Shown: one piece after another, positions 1,779-44,525 of the stretch
Layout: each line of letters begins with the position of its first letter
How positions within the stretch are numbered: position 1 is the stretch's first letter
Origin: a virus
Strand: one strand, 5' to 3'
IMG/VR virus record: IMGVR_UViG_3300036850_000251
Coordinates: 1 to 45,025 of that record
DNA length: 45,025 nt
Notes under the pieces: generated by a model
The model's database searches: none
What the model saw: only the letters and a program-made list of their open reading frames with translations
What the model was told of the DNA's origin: nothing
Made by a program: the position numbers and the translations under genes

Positions 1779-3548
1779 CTAGGGCACCCGCAGTTCAGGG
1801 TCCGGACGCACGGTGATGGTCGTCGCGTCCGGACGCACGACGACCTCGGACGCGTCCGGGCGAATGTCAATCACGACGAACGCGGTCGCTAACAGGAACG
1901 CGATGGTCGGAACGGGAAGGCTCCACGATGAGGCGACCAGACGGGCCGCGTAATGCGCCGCCACCTGCTCCGCCGTGAGGGCCGTTGGATAGAACGCGAT
2001 CTCGTCGAGCACGCCGGCGGCGCGGCCGCCGTCCGCGAAAAATGCGAGCGAGTGGGCGATCCGCCAATTCGCACTCGACGTCGACCACGCGGCGGTGTCG
2101 CTGTCGGCGGCTTCGAGCACGCCGTTGACGTACAGCCGGCGGCCGGACGCGTCTCGCACCGCGACGACGTGGTACCACGTGCCGAAGGCGTACTGCGTCG
2201 TGCCGACCAGTGCCGTCGCGTCGGCCCGGCCGGTCGCCGCAGACCAGAAGACGAATTTGCCTCCGGCGCCGTCGATCTCTTCCTGCGCCGCGGCGAGCAT
2301 CATGGCGGGGTCGTGTGACACCAGGACGCTCAGGCGCCCGTCGTTCGGCTTGAACCACGCTTCGTAACTCGCCTCGACGCCGTAGGGAATCGGTGCGATG
2401 CCATTCACGATCGTGCCGCCCAGGAACTCCGCCGCGGTGTCCGTGCCGGCAATCGCGCCAGGCTGCTCGAAGTTCACCTCGTCCACCGGCACGGTGCCGT
2501 CATGGGCGCCGATCGCGTCGCTGACTGTGGTGGTGCCGATCGGGTCGTTGAGCCGCCAGTACGCCGCTGCGCCATCGGCGATCACGCGCTGGTCATACCG
2601 CGGCACGCCGACGCAGAGCGCGCCGACCGAGATGACCTGCGACACATTCAACGTGCTCGCCGGCAGGGCCCAGGCCGCGACCGCTGCCCCCGTGGCGACG
2701 GTCAGGTGCGCGGTGATCGCCGGGACGACCCATAACGTCGCGATGGCGGCGGCGGCGACCGACGTCGTGCCGGACACCGTCACCGTCGGGACGACCCATG
2801 TGCCCGTCGCCGAGGCGGCCGCGATCGCAACGCCACCCGGTAGCACACTGGCGCCGGGCGCCACCCAGGCGACGGTCGCAGGACTCGCCGGAATCGCGCC
2901 CGAGCTGATGAGCGTGGCCGACGGCACCCCCCAGCTCGCGGCCGCTGGCGACGCTGAGGTGGTCACGGTCGCATTGACACTCGGCGACGGCAGGGTCCAG
3001 GCCGCCACGGCCGCGCCTGCGGCCACACTCACCGGCGAGATCACGTCGGGTGCGGGGACCGTCCAACTGGCGGTGGCGGCGGCCGCCGAGATGCCGGAGC
3101 TGGCTTGTGCCGCGGGCAGAGCCCATGCCGCCGCGGCCGCGTTCGTGCCGATGGTGACGGGCGATTGCACCGTCGCCGCCGGTGCCGACCAGGTGCCGAC
3201 CGCCGCGTTTGCGCTGATCGAGATGGGACCGGGAACGACCGTCGTGGCCGGCGCCGTCCACGTCGGCACCGCCGCGCTCGCCGCGACCGTGACTGGAGAA
3301 ACGATCGTCGGCGCCGGCGCGGTCCAGCTCGCCGCCGCCGCTGTGGCGCTGATCGCCACGGTCGCGACGACGGTCGCCGCCGCGCACACCCAGGACGCCA
3401 CAGCGGCGGACGCACCAACCGTCTGCGGACTCGAGCCGCTGCTGTTTGTGAGGTAGTCGGGATCGAACGACCCGGCGCTGTCGACCTCGGGGTCGAACAG
3501 ACCTCGCTTGTGCAGCTCCGCGTCGAACAGGCCAGAGCGCGCCGCCAT
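1779..3548 (-). CDS. Repeat-rich tail adhesin with LamG-type lectin domain
   Basis: 589-aa virion protein, probably host-binding. Order of parts: a short N-terminal segment with GLFD and FDPDYLT; about 12 tandem units of roughly 22 aa, each with a small-residue stretch ending in Trp followed by an (A/V/L)P turn (residues ~44-310); a concanavalin-A/LamG-like domain (ADGAAAYWRLNDPIG, ASYEAWFKP, TWYHVVAVRD, RRLYVNGV, LDEIAFYPTALTAEQV); one more W-repeat; and a C-terminal triple RPDA/RPDP repeat. Laminin-G-like domains in phage tails typically bind glycans. It is one of three adhesin-like proteins in a row. Confidence 0.75.
   Translation of the reverse strand: MAARSGLFDAELHKRGLFDPEVDSAGSFDPDYLTNSSGSSPQTVGASAAVASWVCAAATVVATVAISATAAAASWTAPAPTIVSPVTVAASAAVPTWTAPATTVVPGPISISANAAVGTWSAPAATVQSPVTIGTNAAAAAWALPAAQASSGISAAAATASWTVPAPDVISPVSVAAGAAVAAWTLPSPSVNATVTTSASPAAASWGVPSATLISSGAIPASPATVAWVAPGASVLPGGVAIAAASATGTWVVPTVTVSGTTSVAAAAIATLWVVPAITAHLTVATGAAVAAWALPASTLNVSQVISVGALCVGVPRYDQRVIADGAAAYWRLNDPIGTTTVSDAIGAHDGTVPVDEVNFEQPGAIAGTDTAAEFLGGTIVNGIAPIPYGVEASYEAWFKPNDGRLSVLVSHDPAMMLAAAQEEIDGAGGKFVFWSAATGRADATALVGTTQYAFGTWYHVVAVRDASGRRLYVNGVLEAADSDTAAWSTSSANWRIAHSLAFFADGGRAAGVLDEIAFYPTALTAEQVAAHYAARLVASSWSLPVPTIAFLLATAFVVIDIRPDASEVVVRPDATTITVRPDPELRVP
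2624..3419 (-). repeat. About 12 tandem ~66-bp units coding a Trp-Pro repeat
   Basis: Protein-level tandem repeat inside the LamG adhesin. Units follow the pattern V/I-x-A-x-A-A-x-x-x-W-x-x-P-x-x-x-V, about 22 residues each. Examples are VAASAAVPTWTAPATTV and ISANAAVGTWSAPAATV. The units are diverged at DNA level, so the array is old and not a recent slippage product. It probably forms a beta-rich stalk. Boundaries are approximate. Confidence 0.75.
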
Positions 3549-3554
3549 CGAGCC

Positions 3555-4880
3555 TTAGAAGCTGATGACTACGGCGTAACCCGCGCCGCCCACGCCGCCC
3601 GCGCCGCCGAGGCCGGGATTCTGTCCGACGCCGCCACCGCCGCCACCACCGCCACCGCGGCCACCGTTGCCACCGGCGCGTCCCGCGGTCGAGGCCGTCA
3701 CTGTCGTTCCGCCGCCGCCGCCGCCGCTGCCACCCTTCGTGGAGTCGCCATCGGCGCCGTTCGCGCCGACCGTGGGCGCCGCGCCATCGGTGCCGACCGC
3801 GCCGCCGCCACCAGCGGCGTACGCGTTGGCCGCGCCGCCCGCGCCGCCCGCGATCACCGCCGGGGTTGAACTGTGCGAGCCACCAGCCCCGCCGCCGCCA
3901 CCGCCGAACAGCGAGCCGCCGCCGAGCGAGCCGGCGACGGGCGTGGCGGCGATGCCGGCGCCGGCGCCGCCGCCGAACTCTGCGTTGCCTGTGGTCGACA
4001 CCGCAACCGTGCCGGTCACGCCCTGTCCACCGACGCCGTCCGTCGCCGCCGTGGGCTTGCCACCTGTGCCGCCCGACGTCGTGCCGACTGCGCCCGCGCC
4101 GCCTGTGCCACCGCCGCCGCCGCCGCCGGTGACGACGGCCGAGATCGCGCCGCCGCGGCCGCCGCCGCCCCCGTAGGCCGTCGCCTTCGTGCCGAACGAG
4201 GTGTTGCCGCCGTTGCCGCCGTCGCCGCCCGCCGCGCCGGCCGCGCCCGGCGCACCCGCGGTGCCGCCAGCGCCGATCGTCACCGTTTCGGTCGCGCCGA
4301 GGTCGGACGAGATGTACGTCTCGCGCATGAATGCGCCGCCGCCACCACCGCCACCGCCCTTCGCCACGACCGCGGTCGCCAGCGACGCGCCGGCGCCGCC
4401 GCCGCCGCCCGCGCCCCACAGCTTGACGTGCGTGACTTTGGGAACGAACGTCGTCGGCTTCGTCCAGGTGCCGCTCGCGGTGAAGACCTGCACGTCGACC
4501 GTGAGCGCGCTGGCGCTGTAGACGCCACCGTTCGCGTTGTAGTGGAAGAACACGCCCTCGCGCATCACCAGCTCTTCGCCGGCGAGCAGCGTGCACTTGT
4601 GCAGCTGATAGGCGGTGCCGTTCTGGTTGTAGCGCAACGTGACGTCGTTGCCGTTGCTCGCGTGCGCGTTGCGAATCGACAGAAACTTCACGTTCCGCAC
4701 GGTCGACGCCGCCGGCGAGCCGACCACGTCGGTCGTCGTCGCGGACGTGATCGACGTGTTCTGCTTGCCGGGCGTGAACGCGTCGGCGAGGTCATCGACG
4801 TAGGACGCGTGCACGTGCAGGTCGGCGCTCGAGGTGGAGATCAGATCGAGCTTGTCGGTGGTTGCGGCGAGATTAAGCAC
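3555..4880 (-). CDS. Glycine-rich tail fibre tip/adhesin
   Basis: 441-aa protein. Its N-terminal ~150 residues are a beta-rich virion domain (DKLDLISTSSADLHVHASY; LRYNQNGTAYQLHKC). This is followed by FTASGTWTKPTTF and KLWGAGGGGGAG, then ~270 residues dominated by Gly/Ala runs, closing in GYAVVISF. The layout matches the 'glycine-rich domain' adhesins whose runs can pack as poly-glycine II sandwiches, as in phage S16 gp38. The gene begins at GTG (880-878 of the 4.8-kb block). It lies between two LamG-like virion genes. Role as receptor-binding protein is inferred. Confidence 0.75.
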   Translation of the reverse strand: MLNLAATTDKLDLISTSSADLHVHASYVDDLADAFTPGKQNTSITSATTTDVVGSPAASTVRNVKFLSIRNAHASNGNDVTLRYNQNGTAYQLHKCTLLAGEELVMREGVFFHYNANGGVYSASALTVDVQVFTASGTWTKPTTFVPKVTHVKLWGAGGGGGAGASLATAVVAKGGGGGGGGAFMRETYISSDLGATETVTIGAGGTAGAPGAAGAAGGDGGNGGNTSFGTKATAYGGGGGRGGAISAVVTGGGGGGGTGGAGAVGTTSGGTGGKPTAATDGVGGQGVTGTVAVSTTGNAEFGGGAGAGIAATPVAGSLGGGSLFGGGGGGAGGSHSSTPAVIAGGAGGAANAYAAGGGGAVGTDGAAPTVGANGADGDSTKGGSGGGGGGTTVTASTAGRAGGNGGRGGGGGGGGGVGQNPGLGGAGGVGGAGYAVVISF

Positions 4881-7565: not shown

Positions 7566-8417
7566 GTGTTGAATAACGGTCCAGGTCAGGCGCGCGCGAC
7601 GTGGAAAGGGTTCCTGAAAATCAGCCTGGTGACGATCCCGATCAGAGTCTTCCCGGCCACCGAATCGAGCAAGGCCCTCTCGTTCAACCAGCTCCACGGC
7701 GAGTGCCAGACGCGTATCCAGCAACGGAAGTGGTGTCCCCACTGCGAGCGCCAGGTGCCCAACTCGGAGGTCACCAAGGGCTACCAGTTCGAGAAGGACC
7801 GCTATGTCCTGTTATCGGACGATGACATCGCCGGCGTGCGGCCGCCGTCGACGCGTGTGATCGACCTGGTGCAGTTCGCCGATGCCCGGGAACTCGACCC
7901 GATGCACGTCGATCGTACGTATTACCTCGCGCCCGATGGTGCCACCGGCGTGCAGGCCTTCGCCGTGATGCGGGAAGGCCTGGTTGGCAAGGTCGGCATC
8001 GGGAAGCTCGCCCTCTACGGCCGCGAATATCTCGTCGCCGTCCGGCCGCGTGGCCGCGCGCTCGTGCTGCACACCCTGCACGACGCCGCGGAGATGCGGC
8101 GGATCGACGCCGTCGACGAGCTGAACGCGGTGCCCGTCGACGTCGACGCGGCGCAGGTGAAGCTCGCGCGCCAGGTGATTACGGCGTTCGACGCGCCCCT
8201 CGACCTCGCCAATTATCGCGACGAATACCGCGCGCAGCTGCAACGCATCATCGACGCGAAGGTCGCCGGCGACGAGATCGTCGGACCCGTCGCGGAGCCG
8301 GCGCCGGCGCCGGTGAACCTTCTGGATGCGTTGAAACGGAGTCTGCAGGCGGTCAGCGCCGCGAAGAAGAAGCCGGCGCGTGTCGCGGCCGCGGGGCCCA
8401 CGCGGAAACGCGCGTAA
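7566..8417 (+). CDS. ku: Ku protein (NHEJ DNA-end-binding protein)
   Basis: 283-aa homodimeric bacterial-type Ku, normal length for the family. Diagnostic segments: the opening TWKGFLKISLVTIPIRVFPA, HGECQTRIQQRKWCPHCERQ (H...C region), VTKGYQFEKDRYVLLSDDDI, VDRTYYLAPDGATG, AFAVMREGLVGKVGIGKL and LVAVRPRGRALVLHTLHDAAEMR. The end is a short Lys/Arg/Ala tail (AAKKKPARVAAAGPTRKRA), typical of bacterial Ku. Ku rings load on double-strand ends and recruit LigD-type ligase. Start GTG/TTG at 7566-7571 after AGGGGG. It stands on the plus strand with the methyltransferase 99 bases downstream. Among phages, Ku is known in mycobacteriophages Omega and Corndog, where it serves genome end-joining. No ligase gene is seen here. 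Confidence 0.93.
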   Translation: MLNNGPGQARATWKGFLKISLVTIPIRVFPATESSKALSFNQLHGECQTRIQQRKWCPHCERQVPNSEVTKGYQFEKDRYVLLSDDDIAGVRPPSTRVIDLVQFADARELDPMHVDRTYYLAPDGATGVQAFAVMREGLVGKVGIGKLALYGREYLVAVRPRGRALVLHTLHDAAEMRRIDAVDELNAVPVDVDAAQVKLARQVITAFDAPLDLANYRDEYRAQLQRIIDAKVAGDEIVGPVAEPAPAPVNLLDALKRSLQAVSAAKKKPARVAAAGPTRKRA

Positions 8418-8516: not shown

Positions 8517-10250
8517 GTGGCCTCTCGCGGTAATGGCAATCGCCTGTTCTACGGCGACAACTTAGACGTTCTCCGGCAACACGTCCCGGACGAGAGTGTC
8601 GACCTCGTCTATCTCGACCCGCCGTTCAACTCGAACGCGAATTACAACATCCTGTTTGCCGAAAAAAACGGCAAACAGGCCGCGGCACAAATCCACGCCT
8701 TCGAGGACACCTGGCGGTGGGACGAAGGCGCCGCGCGCTCTTTCCAGGACGTGGTGGAGCGCGGTGGCCGCGTCTCAGAAGTGATGCAGGCATTTCGCGC
8801 GTTCCTGGGCCACAGTGACATGCTCGCGTACCTGGCGATGATGGCTCCGCGGATCGTCGAGCTCCGCCGCGTGCTGAAGCCAACGGGCAGTCTGTTCCTG
8901 CATTGCGACCCGACGGCGAGCCATTATCTCAAGCTGCTGCTCGATGCGGTCTTCAACCCCGTCAACCTGCGCAGCGAAATCATTTGGCGTCGAACACTCG
9001 CGAAAGGTCTCGCGTTCACCGGCTTCCCGAAGGATCACGATACGATCTTCTACTACGGGGCCAGTGGGAACGTGACGTTTAACCGTCCATACATCCCCTA
9101 CGACCCGGACAATCTCGAGGAGAAAACCGCGAAAAAGTACAGCCACCGCGATCGAGAGGGTCGGCTGTATCGTCTCGACAATCTGCTGAATCCCAACCCG
9201 AACCGTCCAAACCTGACCTACGAATTTCTTGGAGTGAAGCGCGTCTGGCGGTGGACGAAGGAACGGATGCAAGAGGCCTACGAGAACGGTCTGGTGATTC
9301 AAACAAAGCCCGGCGCCGTTCCGCAACTGAAGCGGTACTTAGACGAGCAAGAAGGCCGCCCAGTCGATTCGGTCTGGACGGACATTCCGCCGTTGAACTC
9401 TCAAGCGAAGGAACGTCTCGGTTATCCGACGCAAAAGCCCGAAGCCTTGATGGATCGCATCATCGAGGCGAGCACGAATGAGGGCGACACGGTGCTGGAC
9501 CCTTTCTGCGGCTGCGGAACCACGATTGCGAGCGCGCAGCGACTCAGCCGCAAGTGGATCGGCATCGACATCACACATCTTGCAATCGGCCTCATCCGTC
9601 ATCGCTTGAGCGACACGTACGGTGAGAAGATCGCGGAGGCCTATCGCGTCATCGGCGAGCCGGTCTCCATCGAAGATGCGGCAGTCCTGGCCGCGTCAGA
9701 GCCCTATCAGTTTCAGGCGTGGTCACTGGGGCTCGTCGGGGCGAGACTCGCGACGGATGTGAAGAAAGGGGCCGACAAAGGCATCGACGGACGCATCTAC
9801 TTTCACGACGGTGACGACAGTGCCACGAAGCAAGTCATCCTTTCGGTGAAGGCCGGCAAGCTGCACGCACCATACGTTCGGGATCTGCGCGGCGTGGTCG
9901 AGCGAGAAAAAGCGGCCATCGGCGTCCTGCTGACGCTGGAGGAACCGACGCGCGCGATGCGGACCGAAGCCGCAGCCGCAGGGTTCTATGCGTCACTCTG
10001 GGGGCAACATCCCAGACTCCAAATCGTGACGGTGGGCGAACTCCTGAACGGCAACAGAATCGACATGCCGCCGATCCGACAGACCGATCTCACCCATCGG
10101 CGGGCGCCGAAGGCGATCACGCCGAAGCCCGAAGCTGGGCGTCTCGACTTTGATCGGGTCGCCAACTCCACCGCGCCGTTGCCGCGGCGCCTGAAGATGG
10201 CGAAGGTTGCATCGCCGCGGAAGGCTACGCCGAAGCGCAAGCGGGCCTGA
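8517..10250 (+). CDS. N4/N6 DNA methyltransferase fused to Mrr-like nuclease domain
   Basis: 577-aa two-domain protein. The methyltransferase half has the beta-class order: motif IV DPPF at residues 34-37 (VDLVYLDPPFNSNANYN) and motif I at 328-334 (DPFCGCGTT), followed by RKWIGIDITHLAI. The C-terminal third carries an Mrr-like restriction-endonuclease core: GADKGIDGRIYF (D424) and QVILSVKAGK (K445), then RDLRGVVEREKAAIGVLLTL. The tail is basic (TPKRKRA), like the tail of Ku. GTG start, weak ribosome site. This architecture is known in bacteria as a methyltransferase with an added nuclease domain; here it is the probable operon partner of Ku. Possible jobs are protecting phage DNA, restricting rivals, or end processing. 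Confidence 0.88.
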   Translation: MASRGNGNRLFYGDNLDVLRQHVPDESVDLVYLDPPFNSNANYNILFAEKNGKQAAAQIHAFEDTWRWDEGAARSFQDVVERGGRVSEVMQAFRAFLGHSDMLAYLAMMAPRIVELRRVLKPTGSLFLHCDPTASHYLKLLLDAVFNPVNLRSEIIWRRTLAKGLAFTGFPKDHDTIFYYGASGNVTFNRPYIPYDPDNLEEKTAKKYSHRDREGRLYRLDNLLNPNPNRPNLTYEFLGVKRVWRWTKERMQEAYENGLVIQTKPGAVPQLKRYLDEQEGRPVDSVWTDIPPLNSQAKERLGYPTQKPEALMDRIIEASTNEGDTVLDPFCGCGTTIASAQRLSRKWIGIDITHLAIGLIRHRLSDTYGEKIAEAYRVIGEPVSIEDAAVLAASEPYQFQAWSLGLVGARLATDVKKGADKGIDGRIYFHDGDDSATKQVILSVKAGKLHAPYVRDLRGVVEREKAAIGVLLTLEEPTRAMRTEAAAAGFYASLWGQHPRLQIVTVGELLNGNRIDMPPIRQTDLTHRRAPKAITPKPEAGRLDFDRVANSTAPLPRRLKMAKVASPRKATPKRKRA

Positions 10251-12784: not shown

Positions 12785-14506
12785 TCATGCGGCCTCGACG
12801 ACGCGGACCTTCATGTCGGGCACCGCGCGGTACCGGTCGACGCCTTCCTTCGTCAGGAAGCCGGCGACGACGAGCTCCTGGAGCGCGACCGACAGGCTCT
12901 TGTTGTTGATGCGCGTGCCGGTGCGCTCGAGCTCCTTCAGGATCTCGCGGAAGCGGCGCGACTCGGCGAGCCAGTCCGCCTTGATCAGACGCGCGACGCG
13001 GCCGGTCGTCGACGCGCCGTCGGCTTCGATGATGCGGCGCTCGATCGCGACCTCGAGCTCGGGCTGCTCGACGAGCAGCCGCAGCAGCGCCGGCGCCTCC
13101 GCGATCAAGCGCGCCTTAATCGCCTGGTAGAGCGCTTCGTCGACCTGGCCGTTCGTTCCGCTCGAGCGAGCTTCGCCTTGAGCGCTTTCATCTCGAGCTC
13201 GTGCAGCGCGTTCGCTAACCGAATGTTGCGTTCGATCTTCGCGAGCTTTCGATTCACGTGACGCGTGAACTGAAGCAGGCGATCGCGTTCCTTCGGGGTC
13301 ATGCTGCCCTTTCTCGAGCGCCTCGAGGCGGCGCCGTAGATTCTGGTTCTCCTCGCGCAGCTGCGCGTTCTCGCGCGTCAGCCGCGCGGCTTCCTCCTTC
13401 GTCACCTGCGCCTCCTTCTGCCCGGTCATCGACCGCGCGATCTCGCCGACGCTGGTCATCGGCCGTGCGACAGCCCGCTCCACCGCGTGTTTGATCGTTG
13501 CGGCGGTGGCGATCGTGGTCGCGTTCCGGACGTCCAACTGCCCCGTCGCCACATGGTGCGCGATCGCGGTCGGCATCCACGCCGGCTGCGCGTACGTGCG
13601 CACCGCGTGCTTGCCCCAGCACGCGAAAAACTGCCCGAGCTCGAGCGTCGCGATGTCCGCCTTCGACGGTTTCGCGATGCCGGCCGGGATGTTCTCGAGC
13701 GTGCGCTTGATTTCGTTCGCCTCGCGCTGCACGCCGAGAATCCACACCGGCACGCTCCGCAGGATCTCCTTCTCGATGCCGCCGAGGTCCTGGCTGTCGA
13801 GCCACAGGTAGTTCTTCAGCCCGGCGCCCTGGCGGATGAACGCGGCCGCGGCGAGCTTCACCGGGGTGCCGCGGCCCTGCGGAATGAACTTCCAGGCCTC
13901 CGGCACGACGACGACCGTCGCGGTGCCGTGCTCGAGCACCCAGTCGAGCGACGACTTGATGACCAGGTGTTGCAGATTGACCGGCAGCCCCGTCAGGTCC
14001 ATCGCGTTGACGCCGGCGGCGAGCTCGACGCCGGGCGCCCACCGCACGGTCGCGATCGCGGGCACGACCTCCTCGAGATACGCGTCGAGGGTCAGGTACA
14101 CGTCGCCGGCGAGGCCTTTGGCGGTCTCCATCGCCTTACGGACGTTCTTGTGAACGTCGGCGAGGGTGCGCGCGCCTTTACTTGCGCGGATGATCCAGGC
14201 GCGCTCGAATTTCAGCTTCTCGCCGCGGCTGGCCTCGAGAACGCTCGCGACAAACTGCCAGTCGGCCTGTTCGCGGAAGTACGGATCGATGCGCCGCGCG
14301 CTGCGGAAGCTGCCCTCGCCGCGCTTGGTGATGAACGTGATCGCGCGGACGGCGGCGCGGCTGATCAGCCCCTCGAGCGCGGTCGTCTTCCCCGCTTCCT
14401 GCGTCTGGCCGCAGACGGCCATATGGCGCAGTGGGATCTCGACGACAGCGCCGGAGGGCACCGCGAAGCCGAGCGTCACGGTCGCCGGCGACGGCCGCAG
14501 CGTCAT
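12785..14506 (-). CDS. HerA/FtsK-like ATPase
   Basis: 573-aa P-loop ATPase of the HerA/DUF87 type. P-loop: MAVCGQTQEAGKTTALEGL (one residue longer than the classic Walker A, as in this subfamily), followed by ITFITKRGEGSF. Walker B region: TATVVVVPEAWKFIPQ, where the usual Asp before Glu is Pro. A sensor-like motif follows in NYLWLDSQDLGG. A heptad-like coil (ENAQLREENQNLRRRLEALE) and polar linker lead to a C-terminal winged-helix-like domain (RTGTRINNKSLSVALQELVV). ATG at 14506 overlaps the upstream zinc-ribbon stop (ATGA). Position downstream of the replication initiator suggests a motor acting on DNA in replication or recombination. Confidence 0.8.
   Translation of the reverse strand: MTLRPSPATVTLGFAVPSGAVVEIPLRHMAVCGQTQEAGKTTALEGLISRAAVRAITFITKRGEGSFRSARRIDPYFREQADWQFVASVLEASRGEKLKFERAWIIRASKGARTLADVHKNVRKAMETAKGLAGDVYLTLDAYLEEVVPAIATVRWAPGVELAAGVNAMDLTGLPVNLQHLVIKSSLDWVLEHGTATVVVVPEAWKFIPQGRGTPVKLAAAAFIRQGAGLKNYLWLDSQDLGGIEKEILRSVPVWILGVQREANEIKRTLENIPAGIAKPSKADIATLELGQFFACWGKHAVRTYAQPAWMPTAIAHHVATGQLDVRNATTIATAATIKHAVERAVARPMTSVGEIARSMTGQKEAQVTKEEAARLTRENAQLREENQNLRRRLEALEKGQHDPEGTRSPASVHASRESKAREDRTQHSVSERAARARDESAQGEARSSGTNGQVDEALYQAIKARLIAEAPALLRLLVEQPELEVAIERRIIEADGASTTGRVARLIKADWLAESRRFREILKELERTGTRINNKSLSVALQELVVAGFLTKEGVDRYRAVPDMKVRVVEAA
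13105..13302 (-). CDS. Possible nested gene in the ATPase linker, 65 aa
   Basis: In another frame of the linker region lies a Lys/Leu/Glu-rich open frame, MTPKERDRLLQFTRHVNRKL...ALKAKLARAERTARS, preceded by AAAGG six bases before ATG. The main ATPase frame here is a low-complexity Ser/Arg/Glu linker, while the nested frame looks like a normal basic helical protein. It may be a true overprinted gene, or mark two compensating frameshifts in the ATPase. Uncertain. Confidence 0.35.
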   Translation of the reverse strand: MTPKERDRLLQFTRHVNRKLAKIERNIRLANALHELEMKALKAKLARAERTARSTKRSTRRLRRA

Positions 14507-14715
14507 GCGGGCGGGAGCTCCCACCGGTGGCTGCACCAGCCGCAGAAGAGGCGATGCGGGTGCTCGCGGGTCGGCGCAAGGATCGCGCCCGTCCGCTGGC
14601 ACTCCGGGCAGATCGCCGACGTGACGCGGTTGCGCAGGGCGCGATCGGCCGGGAGCTTCATCATCGACCGCTTGCCGCCCGGGCGGAGGCCGAGTTTCTC
14701 GTTGATGTGCGTCAT
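14503..14715 (-). CDS. Zinc-ribbon protein, 70 aa
   Basis: Contains a four-Cys zinc ribbon: ICPECQRTG and LFCGWCSHRW, separated by about 18 residues. The N-terminal half is basic (LRPGGKRSMMKLPADRALR). ATG overlaps the upstream stop and its own stop overlaps the ATPase start (ATGA both sides), indicating a translationally coupled set with the ATPase. It may be an accessory factor of the ATPase. Confidence 0.7.
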   Translation of the reverse strand: MTHINEKLGLRPGGKRSMMKLPADRALRNRVTSAICPECQRTGAILAPTREHPHRLFCGWCSHRWELPPA

Positions 14716-14900: not shown

Positions 14901-15854
14901 CTAGCCGACGCGTCGCGCGAGGGCGATCGCACGCACGCAATCTAGATACGCGGTCTTGCCGCTGCACCTTGGCTCGTGGGGGCACCCGCCGTGGACGCGC
15001 GCGCGAATCTGTTTCGCATCGTCGAGCTCGCGAGCTGTCAGCGGCCGTTCCTCCATCGGACCCAACGTCAACTGCTCCGGGACGACCACCGCGCGATCGA
15101 GAAACTGCGCTTTGTGGCGGAGCACTCGGAGACTGCGATCGGAACGCGCGATCCACGACTGGTGACTTGCAGGGTCGGCGTCGGCCTCGACGGACCAGAG
15201 GACGATCGCCATCGCCTGCAGCCGGTCGATCGTGCGCCCGTCGTCCAGGAGTTGCTGCACGACCGCGGCGGCGCCGGCGTCGGCCGTGGGGAGCGCGCCG
15301 CCGTTGTGCAGCGGATACGTCACGCGCCACCACGCGAGAAACTGCGCGATTTGCGCGCCACTGTGGCGCGCCAGTACAGGATCAGCAGCAGGGATCTGTA
15401 CTTCTGCTTCTGATCTGTACGTGTGCGCCACTTCGTCGAAATCAGGCCCATTTTCTTGTGCGCCACCTACCTCTTGCGCGCCACTTTGAACGCCACTGTG
15501 GCGCGCAACCTCGTTTTTGTGCGCCACAGTGGCGCGCAGCGACTCCGGATCTTCGGTCGCGAGACGCTTGAGGCAAATGCGATAGGTTGCGGTGCCTCGA
15601 TGCCGTCGAGTCGTCACCTCGAGCCAGCCACGATCGACTAACCGACGCAGCGCGCGATCGACCGACCGTCTCGGGACGCCGCTCTTGCCCGCGAGTGCCG
15701 CGATCGACGACGGCCGGACATTCGTGCCGTCGGGGCGCCAGGCGAACCACCGCGCGAGCGCCTTCAGAACGGCCTTATCCGTTGCCGAGGAGAACCCCGT
15801 CGTCCACTCCACGCGCTGCGCCAGTGATGGAGTACCGCCGCCGGCGCCGCTCAT
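14901..15854 (-). CDS. Replication initiator-like protein (winged helix)
   Basis: 317 aa. The N-terminal ~90 residues form a replication-initiator/lambda O-style winged helix: DKAVLKALARWFAWRPDG, SSIAALAGKSGVPRRSVDRA, RRLVDRGWLEVTTRRH. The middle is a low-complexity segment with echoing motifs (VARHSGVQSGAQEVGGAQ; LARHSGAQIAQ) encoded by a palindrome array. The C-terminus holds a helical domain and a Cys pair (CPHEPRCSG). In lambdoid phages the origin lies inside the O gene as iterons. Start ATG at 15854, with weak ribosome site. Downstream are the small helical protein, zinc ribbon and ATPase. Confidence 0.7.
   Translation of the reverse strand: MSGAGGGTPSLAQRVEWTTGFSSATDKAVLKALARWFAWRPDGTNVRPSSIAALAGKSGVPRRSVDRALRRLVDRGWLEVTTRRHRGTATYRICLKRLATEDPESLRATVAHKNEVARHSGVQSGAQEVGGAQENGPDFDEVAHTYRSEAEVQIPAADPVLARHSGAQIAQFLAWWRVTYPLHNGGALPTADAGAAAVVQQLLDDGRTIDRLQAMAIVLWSVEADADPASHQSWIARSDRSLRVLRHKAQFLDRAVVVPEQLTLGPMEERPLTARELDDAKQIRARVHGGCPHEPRCSGKTAYLDCVRAIALARRVG
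15353..15535. repeat. Iteron-like palindrome array, candidate replication origin
   Basis: Repeats of GCGCCAC occur at 15355, 15425, 15460, 15478 and 15521 (a degenerate ACGCCAC at 15490), with inverse copies GTGGCGC at 15363, 15498 and 15529. Three pair into long dyads, the best being GCGCGCCAC-T-GTGGCGCGC at 15353-15371. Placement inside the initiator gene, with the protein segment there being low complexity, matches origins of lambda type. Origin role is inferred. Confidence 0.6.
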
Positions 15855-23891: not shown

Positions 23892-24317
23892 ATGGCCACT
23901 ATTTACCTGACCGTCGATGAAGTCGTCGCGTTTCATGCGGAGGTCCTCGCCCTCTACGGAGGAGCCGAGGGTCTCCGCTCTTACCATCTGCTAGCGTCCG
24001 CAGTCATGCAGGTTCAGCAGAGCGCATTCGGTGAGGATGCCTACCCGACGATCCCCGAAAAGGCGGCGGCGTACGGCTTCTGCATCGCCCAGAACCAGCC
24101 GTTCATCGATGGCAACAAACGAACCGCAATGCTGACGATGGTCTCGTTCCTCGATCTCAATGGATATCAACTGATCGAGGATGACGACGCTATCGCTCAG
24201 ATGTTCGAGGACGTCGGCGCAGGGATCATCGACCAGGGTGAATTCTTCGGGTGGGTCGTGAATCACGCTAGGCCGGCTCCGACCAGCAACGTCGTGCCAC
24301 TCAAGTCGAACGAGTAA
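23892..24317 (+). CDS. doc: Fic/Doc-family toxin with altered catalytic site
   Basis: 141 aa, the size of Doc (death-on-curing). Normal Doc/Fic proteins have H-x-F-x-(D/E)-(G/A)-N-(K/G)-R. Here the loop is NQPFIDGNKRTAM, keeping F71, D73, N75, K76 and R77 but with Gln69 (codon CAG at 24096-24098) in place of the catalytic His. Flanking family features are present: EGLRSYHLLASAV and FLDLNGYQLIEDDD. The antitoxin gene precedes it. It may be an inactive toxin, use other chemistry, or be a regulatory remnant. Confidence 0.85.
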   Translation: MATIYLTVDEVVAFHAEVLALYGGAEGLRSYHLLASAVMQVQQSAFGEDAYPTIPEKAAAYGFCIAQNQPFIDGNKRTAMLTMVSFLDLNGYQLIEDDDAIAQMFEDVGAGIIDQGEFFGWVVNHARPAPTSNVVPLKSNE

Positions 24318-42499: not shown

Positions 42500-42781
42500 T
42501 TAGGAAACTTTGGACAAACTCTCAGTTGCTCCAGTTGCTTCCATTGCTCCAGTGGTCCCGGTTGCTCCGGTGGCTCCGGTGGACGTCGGCGGCTGCAGCG
42601 CGACCGTGAGATCGATGCGAATCTCGCCGCCGATGCGGCACACGCCTGACTGCACGCCGCGGGCGATGCGCTTGTAGATGGCCGCCGGCGTCTGTTTCGC
42701 GACGTACGCGAATTCCTGGACGGTGAGGAGCTCGTCGCGGCGGGCGGTGAGGACGTACTGGCGAATCTGTGCAGGGCTCAT
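42500..42781 (-). CDS. HTH DNA-binding protein with Gly-x-Thr repeat tail, 93 aa
   Basis: Winged HTH of the excisionase type: DELLTVQEFAYVAKQTPAAI then YKRIARGVQSGVCRIGGEIR. The tail is TGATGATGTTGAMEATGATE, encoded by the 9-bp repeat tract at 42521-42586. ATG overlaps the stop of the TerL nuclease gene (ATGA). It is placed between terminase and portal. Confidence 0.7.
   Translation of the reverse strand: MSPAQIRQYVLTARRDELLTVQEFAYVAKQTPAAIYKRIARGVQSGVCRIGGEIRIDLTVALQPPTSTGATGATGTTGAMEATGATESLSKVS
42521..42586. repeat. 9-bp repeat tract (GTTGCTCCG), long copy
   Basis: About six diverged copies of the unit GTTGCTCCG/A between the 12-mer CTCAGTTGCTCC at the start and GACGTCG at the end, the same borders as the shorter tract at 7104-7134. 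Read here as Gly-Ala-Thr repeats. Confidence 0.7.
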
Positions 42782-43467
42782 ACCGTGGCCAATCCCCTTT
42801 TCTCGTAGACCGAGTCGCCCTCGCCCTGCTCGAGCGTGCTGACCTTCCGGGCGATCAGGCTCGCGATGATGCCGTCGATGCGGCCGCGGCTTTTCTTTTT
42901 CACCGGGTAGATGTTGTCTTTGCCGTCGCGGTTGACGACAACGTTGGACGCCATCCGGGCCATCAGCGGATTGCCGCCGGTGTCGACGAGGCCGTCGAGG
43001 ACGTCGGCTTCGTATTCCTTTGCCGGCGCGCTCATGTGCGCCATCGTTTGCGGGATCTCGATGACCTGGAAGCCGTCATCCTGCAGGTCCTTCTCGAGAT
43101 TGCCGGCGTTCCAAGGGTCGAAGCCGAGCTGCTGGATGTCAAGCTCGAACACGTCGCGCGCGTCTTTCACCGCCTCGCGGATGACGTCCTGATCGAGACG
43201 GTTCCCGGGGTTCGTCGTCAGCCAGCCCTCGGCCACCAGTTGGTGGTACGGGACGCGGTCGCGGCGTTCGCGCTCGAGGAGTGTGTCCTCTGGGGTGAAG
43301 CAGCGCACGATGTAGCGCCAGCGCTTGCGGTCCTCGCTCGGTGGGAAGACCAACGCGAACGCGGCGAGGTCGATCTTGCTCGACAGATCGATCCCACCCC
43401 AGCACTTCCGGCCGCGCATGGCGTTCATCTGGATGCGCAGCGCCCCGATGATCGACGACGTCGTCAT
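42778..43467 (-). CDS. terL: Terminase large subunit, nuclease part
   Basis: 229 aa when started at ATG 43467, which overlaps the stop of the ATPase gene (ATGA). RNase H-like nuclease core of the Terminase_1 family: RKCWGGIDLSSKIDLAAFAL (first Asp), VFELDIQQLGFDPWNAGNLE (second acidic region), RGRIDGIIASLIARKVS (third Asp). Separated from the ATPase by a stop in all readings. Cuts concatemeric DNA during packaging. An upstream TTG (43503) is possible. Confidence 0.85.
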   Translation of the reverse strand: MTTSSIIGALRIQMNAMRGRKCWGGIDLSSKIDLAAFALVFPPSEDRKRWRYIVRCFTPEDTLLERERRDRVPYHQLVAEGWLTTNPGNRLDQDVIREAVKDARDVFELDIQQLGFDPWNAGNLEKDLQDDGFQVIEIPQTMAHMSAPAKEYEADVLDGLVDTGGNPLMARMASNVVVNRDGKDNIYPVKKKSRGRIDGIIASLIARKVSTLEQGEGDSVYEKRGLATV

Positions 43468-44525
43468 GCGGCGACCGCCCAGTCCGACTGTCCGGCACGC
43501 CAACCCTCGATCGATAGCCAGGGCGCATCGGTGTTGACCCAGATGTTCAGGCGCTTCTGCTTGAATTCCGCGGCCGCCGCCGGCATATGGCGCGCCTTCG
43601 TCGCGAGCGCGCGCATGTCGTCGGGCTTGATCGAGACGTTCCAGTTCGGGTTGGCCTTCGCCCAGGTCGCCTCGTCGAGCCAGTCATCCTCGGCGTCGGC
43701 GTGCGCGATGAAGGCGAAAAACGTCTCGTCGTCGACGACACGCTCGAGCACCTGACAAGCGTAGTGATGCTGCGTGCCACACGGCGACCGCTCGTCGTCC
43801 CCGGCGGTGGTGATCTGGAAGTTCAGCGGCTGCCGACGCGCACCGGTCGCCGTCTCCATCACATCGATGAGCGCGCGATCCTTGAGCTTGTGGTACTCGT
43901 CGATGATGATCAGGTGCGGATTGAGCCCATCCTCCGGGTTCGCGCCGAGCGGCTTGAGAAACGACTCACTGTCGGCGCGGTACAGGCTCTTCGCGTTCGG
44001 CTTGATCTTGTCTTTCAGGCCGCTACTGAGGACGAGCTTCTTCGCGTCTCTGAACACGAACATCGCCTGGCCGAGTTTCGTCGCGAGGCAGTAACCTTCG
44101 GCGCCGGGCTCGTTGTCGAAGAACGTGGTGTAGTTCGCGACGACGGCTGCCTCGAGCGACTTGCCCTGTTTACGCGGCAGCTCGTTGTAGGCGCTGCGAA
44201 TCCGGCGCAGGCCCGTGTCGACGTGTGTCCACGCGAAGATCGACCCGAGCCGGAATTGCTGAAACGGCTGCAGCAGAATCGGCTGCCCCGCCCACTCGCC
44301 TTTGTAGTGCTTCAGTCGCGCGGAAAACCGGAACAGCCGCTCCGCTTTGGCGAGCTCGAATCGGTACGGAAAGGCCCCGGGGAGCGTCCGTTCGCGGTGA
44401 CGATCGTTCAGATGCCGCTCGCAGGCGAGCTTGTGGTACTTGCCTGCGGGCAATCGGCCCTTCACGACGTCGATCGCGTACGCGTCGACGACGTTGTCGC
44501 CGCCGCTGTCAGTGCGTCGGCTCAT
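43464..44525 (-). CDS. terL: Terminase large subunit, ATPase part
   Basis: 353 aa. Walker A RSAYNELPRKQGKSLEAAVV (xRKxGKS, typical for the family), Walker B HLIIIDEYHKLKD, coupling motif LNFQITTAGDDERSP. Ends in RLNIWVNTDAPWLSIEGWRA, where a normal TerL continues into the nuclease domain; here TGA closes the frame after DWAVAA. Start ATG overlaps the terS end by 17 bases. The two parts presumably assemble into one motor. Confidence 0.9.
   Translation of the reverse strand: MSRRTDSGGDNVVDAYAIDVVKGRLPAGKYHKLACERHLNDRHRERTLPGAFPYRFELAKAERLFRFSARLKHYKGEWAGQPILLQPFQQFRLGSIFAWTHVDTGLRRIRSAYNELPRKQGKSLEAAVVANYTTFFDNEPGAEGYCLATKLGQAMFVFRDAKKLVLSSGLKDKIKPNAKSLYRADSESFLKPLGANPEDGLNPHLIIIDEYHKLKDRALIDVMETATGARRQPLNFQITTAGDDERSPCGTQHHYACQVLERVVDDETFFAFIAHADAEDDWLDEATWAKANPNWNVSIKPDDMRALATKARHMPAAAAEFKQKRLNIWVNTDAPWLSIEGWRAGQSDWAVAA

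Follow-up and report, generated by a model that had tools for sequence, protein, structure and literature searches.

A palindromic repeat array within an O-like phage initiator gene, a probable replication origin

Why should the gene for a replication initiator carry a dense set of short palindromic repeats inside its own coding sequence? The question is raised by a temperate tailed phage whose complete IMG/VR virus record of 45,025 bp, referred to here as the window, was analysed. The window carries terminase, portal, head protease, capsid, tape measure and integrase genes, and the nearest relatives of its capsid, at 40%, are Bradyrhizobium and Azospirillum phages. It also encodes a Ku homologue (7566-8417, + strand), a DNA methyltransferase fused with a restriction-endonuclease-like (Mrr/NA-iREase1) domain (8517-10250, + strand) and a Doc-like toxin (23892-24317, + strand) with an integrase nearby. 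The terminase large subunit (42778-44525, - strand) is in two overlapping frames, 43464-44525 and 42778-43503, which match successive parts of phrog_9; a frameshift, a sequencing error or a split gene could account for this. Repeats of the form CGCCGCC/CGGCGGC are dense within putative tail genes at 3540-4335 and make up the strongest 7-mer clusters of the window.

The initiator gene and its repeats

The gene at 14901-15854 (- strand) encodes a protein of 317 amino acids (P0001) which, by its profile matches and predicted fold, is an O-like initiator with a winged-helix (wHTH) DNA-binding domain. Pfam and PHROG matches and an AlphaFold2 model (m5561d3eebe15; mean pLDDT 71.6, about 91-94 over residues 51-70) place this domain at residues about 24-95 (15570-15785, - strand), and the model, together with column comparison, places its recognition helix at residues 62-74 (RRSVDRALRRLVD; 15633-15671, - strand). 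P0001 matches PHROG families 270 (E 1.2e-7), 391 ('replication initiation O-like', 3.4e-7), 678 (3.1e-6) and 8102, with E values from 1e-7 to 4e-6 overall; these matches are weak and cover residues about 24-130, that is, the wHTH region only. Its best matches among viral structures include the putative replication protein O of Escherichia phage Min27 and also a lambda GpO N-terminal-type protein. In the PDB, a fold search met only wHTH proteins of a generic kind, all at E 0.001 or above, and a sequence search gave no match. Relatives over the whole length of P0001 were not found by tblastn or pattern scans of viral contigs, genomes, phages and plasmids.

An array of nine exact GCGCCAC/GTGGCGC units in both orientations (15324-15535), the proposed origin core, immediately follows the wHTH codons. 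GCGCCAC begins at 15324, 15355, 15425, 15460, 15478 and 15521 on the + strand and at 15363, 15498 and 15529 on the - strand, and a tenth, shorter copy, the hexamer CGCCAC, is found at 15491. The first-pass annotation of this DNA had claimed at least eight such elements within 15353-15535; eight exact copies are present there, and an outlying single unit (15324-15330, + strand) outside that span makes nine. The three dyads that it had described, of CGCCACnGTGGCG type, were also recovered. The one nearest the wHTH codons, GCGCCACAGTGGCGC (15521-15535), has arms of 7, and 31 bp from it, centre to centre, lies CGCCACTGTGGCG (15491-15503) with arms of 6, while GCGCGCCACTGTGGCGCGC (15353-15371) has the longest perfect arms (9). 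Three single units at 15425, 15460 and 15478 (15425-15484, + strand) read GTGGCGC in the gene direction, and positions 15372-15424 form a unit-free gap. The AT profile puts the AT-richest part of the initiator gene amid the units, at 15405-15454 (50% AT); it contains a GTACAGATC-like direct repeat and is a candidate melting region. The translation contains the echoing segment that had been remarked on at first reading, with VAHK, VARHSGVQ, SGAQE, GGAQE, VAHT and LARHSGAQ.

The array exceeds, at the DNA level, what the protein sequence requires. Over the whole window the unit shows no excess (23 copies against 24.3 expected), so the signal is its clustering, with nine copies falling in 212 bp. 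Under a null model of 20,000 synonymous-codon shuffles of the initiator gene, nine units had a probability of 5.5e-4, and three dyads never arose (0/20,000), the maximum reached being two. Some 7-mer reached at least nine copies in 220 bp in 4 of 60 second-order Markov sequences; nine copies alone are no great surprise in so GC-rich a sequence, and it is the dyads rather than the raw count that carry the statistics.

Arrays and recognition helices in other phage initiators

Searching by protein similarity turned up initiators in Pseudomonas, Arthrobacter, Bifidobacterium, Vibrio and Streptomyces phages; almost every one has a repeat array immediately behind its wHTH codons, with units that differ among them. 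Phage initiators with a layout like that of P0001 share about 30% wHTH identity with it or less. Measured against synonymous shuffles, 27 of the 45 non-redundant genes had an excess of repeats in the post-wHTH segment (p<0.01), compared with 0/19 control segments from these genes. Many of the relatives lie in replication modules or carry an initiator annotation, such as L243, which adjoins DnaC- and DnaB-like genes. The first-pass annotation had proposed the origin-in-O layout of lambdoid phages with a different unit, and the PHROG initiator families, the wHTH model and this shared layout elsewhere support that proposal.

The GTGGCGC unit itself recurs in several phages with differing protein segments. 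Together with a CGCCACnGTGGCG dyad it follows the wHTH in IMG/VR loci L063, L253/L358, L265/L352 and L271, whose helices contain arginine (RR[ST]..R) and whose wHTH domains are about 28-30% identical to that of P0001; L352 and L358 have four evenly spaced dyads. These loci were retrieved by the DNA pattern of the unit, so that their sharing of it is a matter of selection; their being wHTH initiators with the array at the equivalent place was not selected for. The scan for three units (GCGCCAC x3) returned almost exclusively unrelated coding repeats, loci with one dyad were mostly chance or coding matches, and scanning genomes for the L063 wHTH yielded just two weak matches.

Comparison of helix columns suggests that the repeat unit and a single residue of the initiator, R67 in P0001 (codon 15654-15656, - strand), vary together. 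Arginine in this column accompanies a GTGnC half-site, and tyrosine, asparagine, alanine or serine a GTGnA half-site. The rule was spotted on 45 genes and written down, and further loci were then fetched; the comparison covers 52 non-redundant initiators. It agrees with 47/47 genes in which the unit was countable (at least five countable sites), and the R67 column is the sole wHTH column that separates the two classes perfectly across these 47; within an Arthrobacter-type clade, one further column also separates them. All eight later-fetched non-redundant loci with an array agree with the rule, some of them being close relatives of earlier ones and the eight therefore not being independent tests: L379, L381 and L391 (Arg) have GTGnC, and L382 (Ser), L383, L387, L392 (Asn) and L394 (Ala) have GTGnA. 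No array was seen in L372 and L393. L249 is an exception, having arginine but the unit GTAGTAG, and L354, with threonine in the equivalent column, has a unit of neither class. When helix and unit were contrasted with control for the tree, three pairs had support; about two of them agreed with the rule, none contradicted it and the remainder showed no difference, so that significance is out of reach in the present set. We found no description of the rule in a literature search that covered few subscription journals.

The L352-L358 family shows both partners changing among close relatives. Members with the helix G[MV]PRRSL[QE]RVL have GCGCCACnGTGGCGC-type dyads, some of them imperfect, and L354-L357, with the helix GIPRRTLQTVL, have GCGCCGnnnCGGCGC at the equivalent positions. 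L352 and L356 are 97-100% identical on either side of an interval running from about +30 to +370 within the gene; inside it the identity falls to 60-87%, and all four dyads differ together with the recognition helix. As the divergence is confined to this interval, wHTH and array were exchanged together, as a cassette. Relatives that keep the protein with its repeats scrambled at the DNA level, which the first-pass annotation had held to count against its reading, were looked for in this comparable family, since the searched collections contained no near relative of the P0001 lineage; the repeats change here only alongside the recognition helix, an outcome that favours the origin reading.

From these comparisons we lean towards the view that phage O-like initiator genes hold a reader and its matched sites, arginine specifying GTGnC and tyrosine, asparagine, alanine or serine specifying GTGnA, and that wHTH and array form one exchangeable specificity cassette. 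If this holds, sequence alone would suffice to locate the origin in many phages of this sort, and the DNA specificity of an initiator would be predictable and could be tested by altering one residue together with its site. A change of replicon type without loss of function would also be explained, since reader and sites are adjacent and would move together.

A proposed origin and its rivals

The array is probably the replication origin of the phage, placed inside its initiator gene, at which the wHTH would bind the units and melting and helicase loading would follow, and the palindromic repeats are probably the initiator's own binding sites. Binding by P0001, melting, helicase loading and origin activity are all steps that we infer; the joint change of helix and unit in relatives lends binding indirect support. 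The N-terminal wHTH of P0001 would bind the half-sites GTGGCGC and would do so as a dimer at the dyads; with about nine units filled cooperatively, the DNA would be wrapped or bent into a lambda-like nucleoprotein complex. This would assist the melting of the AT-richer DNA that lies amid the units, with helicase loading to follow. GC skew, which had been proposed as a check, makes no turn at the array and gives no origin signal, a point against this reading.

Also against it, neither a helicase loader nor a replicative helicase could be recognised in the ORFs of the window that were scanned. Downstream of the initiator, the next long gene (12785-14602, - strand) encodes a putative P-loop ATPase of 605 amino acids. 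It has the P-loop-like GQTQEAGKT together with a YabA-like coiled coil and, at the C terminus, a winged helix of MCM type, all on weak matches. No phage relative of this protein was found, and it is possibly a helicase or a helicase partner. In many relatives an AACC element directly follows the iteron array, in three or four copies at a spacing of 11-13 nt (11 in 43/77 short gaps) that are read in different codon frames. The element occurs in L244, L364-L370 and L375 (Arthrobacter), in L311, L323 and L338 (Pseudomonas-type) and in L162, L360, L373, L391 and L253, and may serve in melting or single-strand binding; its absence beside the array in the window is a further point against the reading. 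In L360 the segment after the wHTH codons is packed very densely with units of GGGTGACAGAGAGTCA type, and CCCCTGAC occurs there nine times.

Three other explanations of the array were considered. Its units could be operators by means of which P0001 represses its own operon or sets its timing, with no origin involved, as the palindromes fit a dimeric regulator and MarR, IclR and other transcription regulators are among the fold matches of P0001. We regard this as unlikely, because about nine units lie within the coding region rather than at a promoter, P0001 matches initiator families, and many relatives have the replication-module setting or initiator annotation described above, L243 among them. 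Considerably less probable is that the repeats follow incidentally from the repetitiveness of the protein segment, or from a preference for GC-rich codons, and have no function in DNA. The segment is indeed repetitive, and the random sequences in which some 7-mer reaches nine copies (4/60) agree with such an origin of the count, but not one of the 20,000 synonymous shuffles yielded three dyads, the GTGGCGC unit is found in several phages despite their differing protein segments, and unit and recognition helix change in concert. Least probable of all, by a little, is that the palindromes work in RNA, as hairpins of the initiator transcript: short and perfect as they are, their single-base centres would hardly accommodate a loop, many of the units stand alone without a partner, and the unit in other phages varies with a helix that recognises DNA.

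Comparison with known systems

The specificity determinants of O are reportedly the subject of work by Furth and Yates in 1978 on lambda, phi80 and 82 hybrids. The lambda origin lies in the middle of the O gene, and its iterons are inverted repeats, placed beside an AT-rich region and bound by the initiator (PMC7466680; PMC6022878). The P0001 array is like lambda O/ori-lambda and Stx-phage O/ori in lying within the initiator gene and in having several inverted-repeat units. It differs from lambda in its unit, GCGCCACnGTGGCGC, in the mixing of dyads with single units, and in its AT-richer stretch, which lies among the units whereas that of lambda lies beside them. P0001 also differs from lambda O in having no match to the Pfam lambda O family (Phage_rep_O) at E<=0.1, and we therefore do not class it among the lambda O homologues of that family; no P-like loader was recognised in the window. 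P0001 and the comparison proteins match the initiator families PHROG 270, 391, 678 and 1032, and the other members that were fetched have post-wHTH arrays. The best reading of the window array is an origin inside an O-like initiator gene, of a known kind and with a unit different from lambda's, in which the matched pair of protein and site possibly exposes a recognition code.
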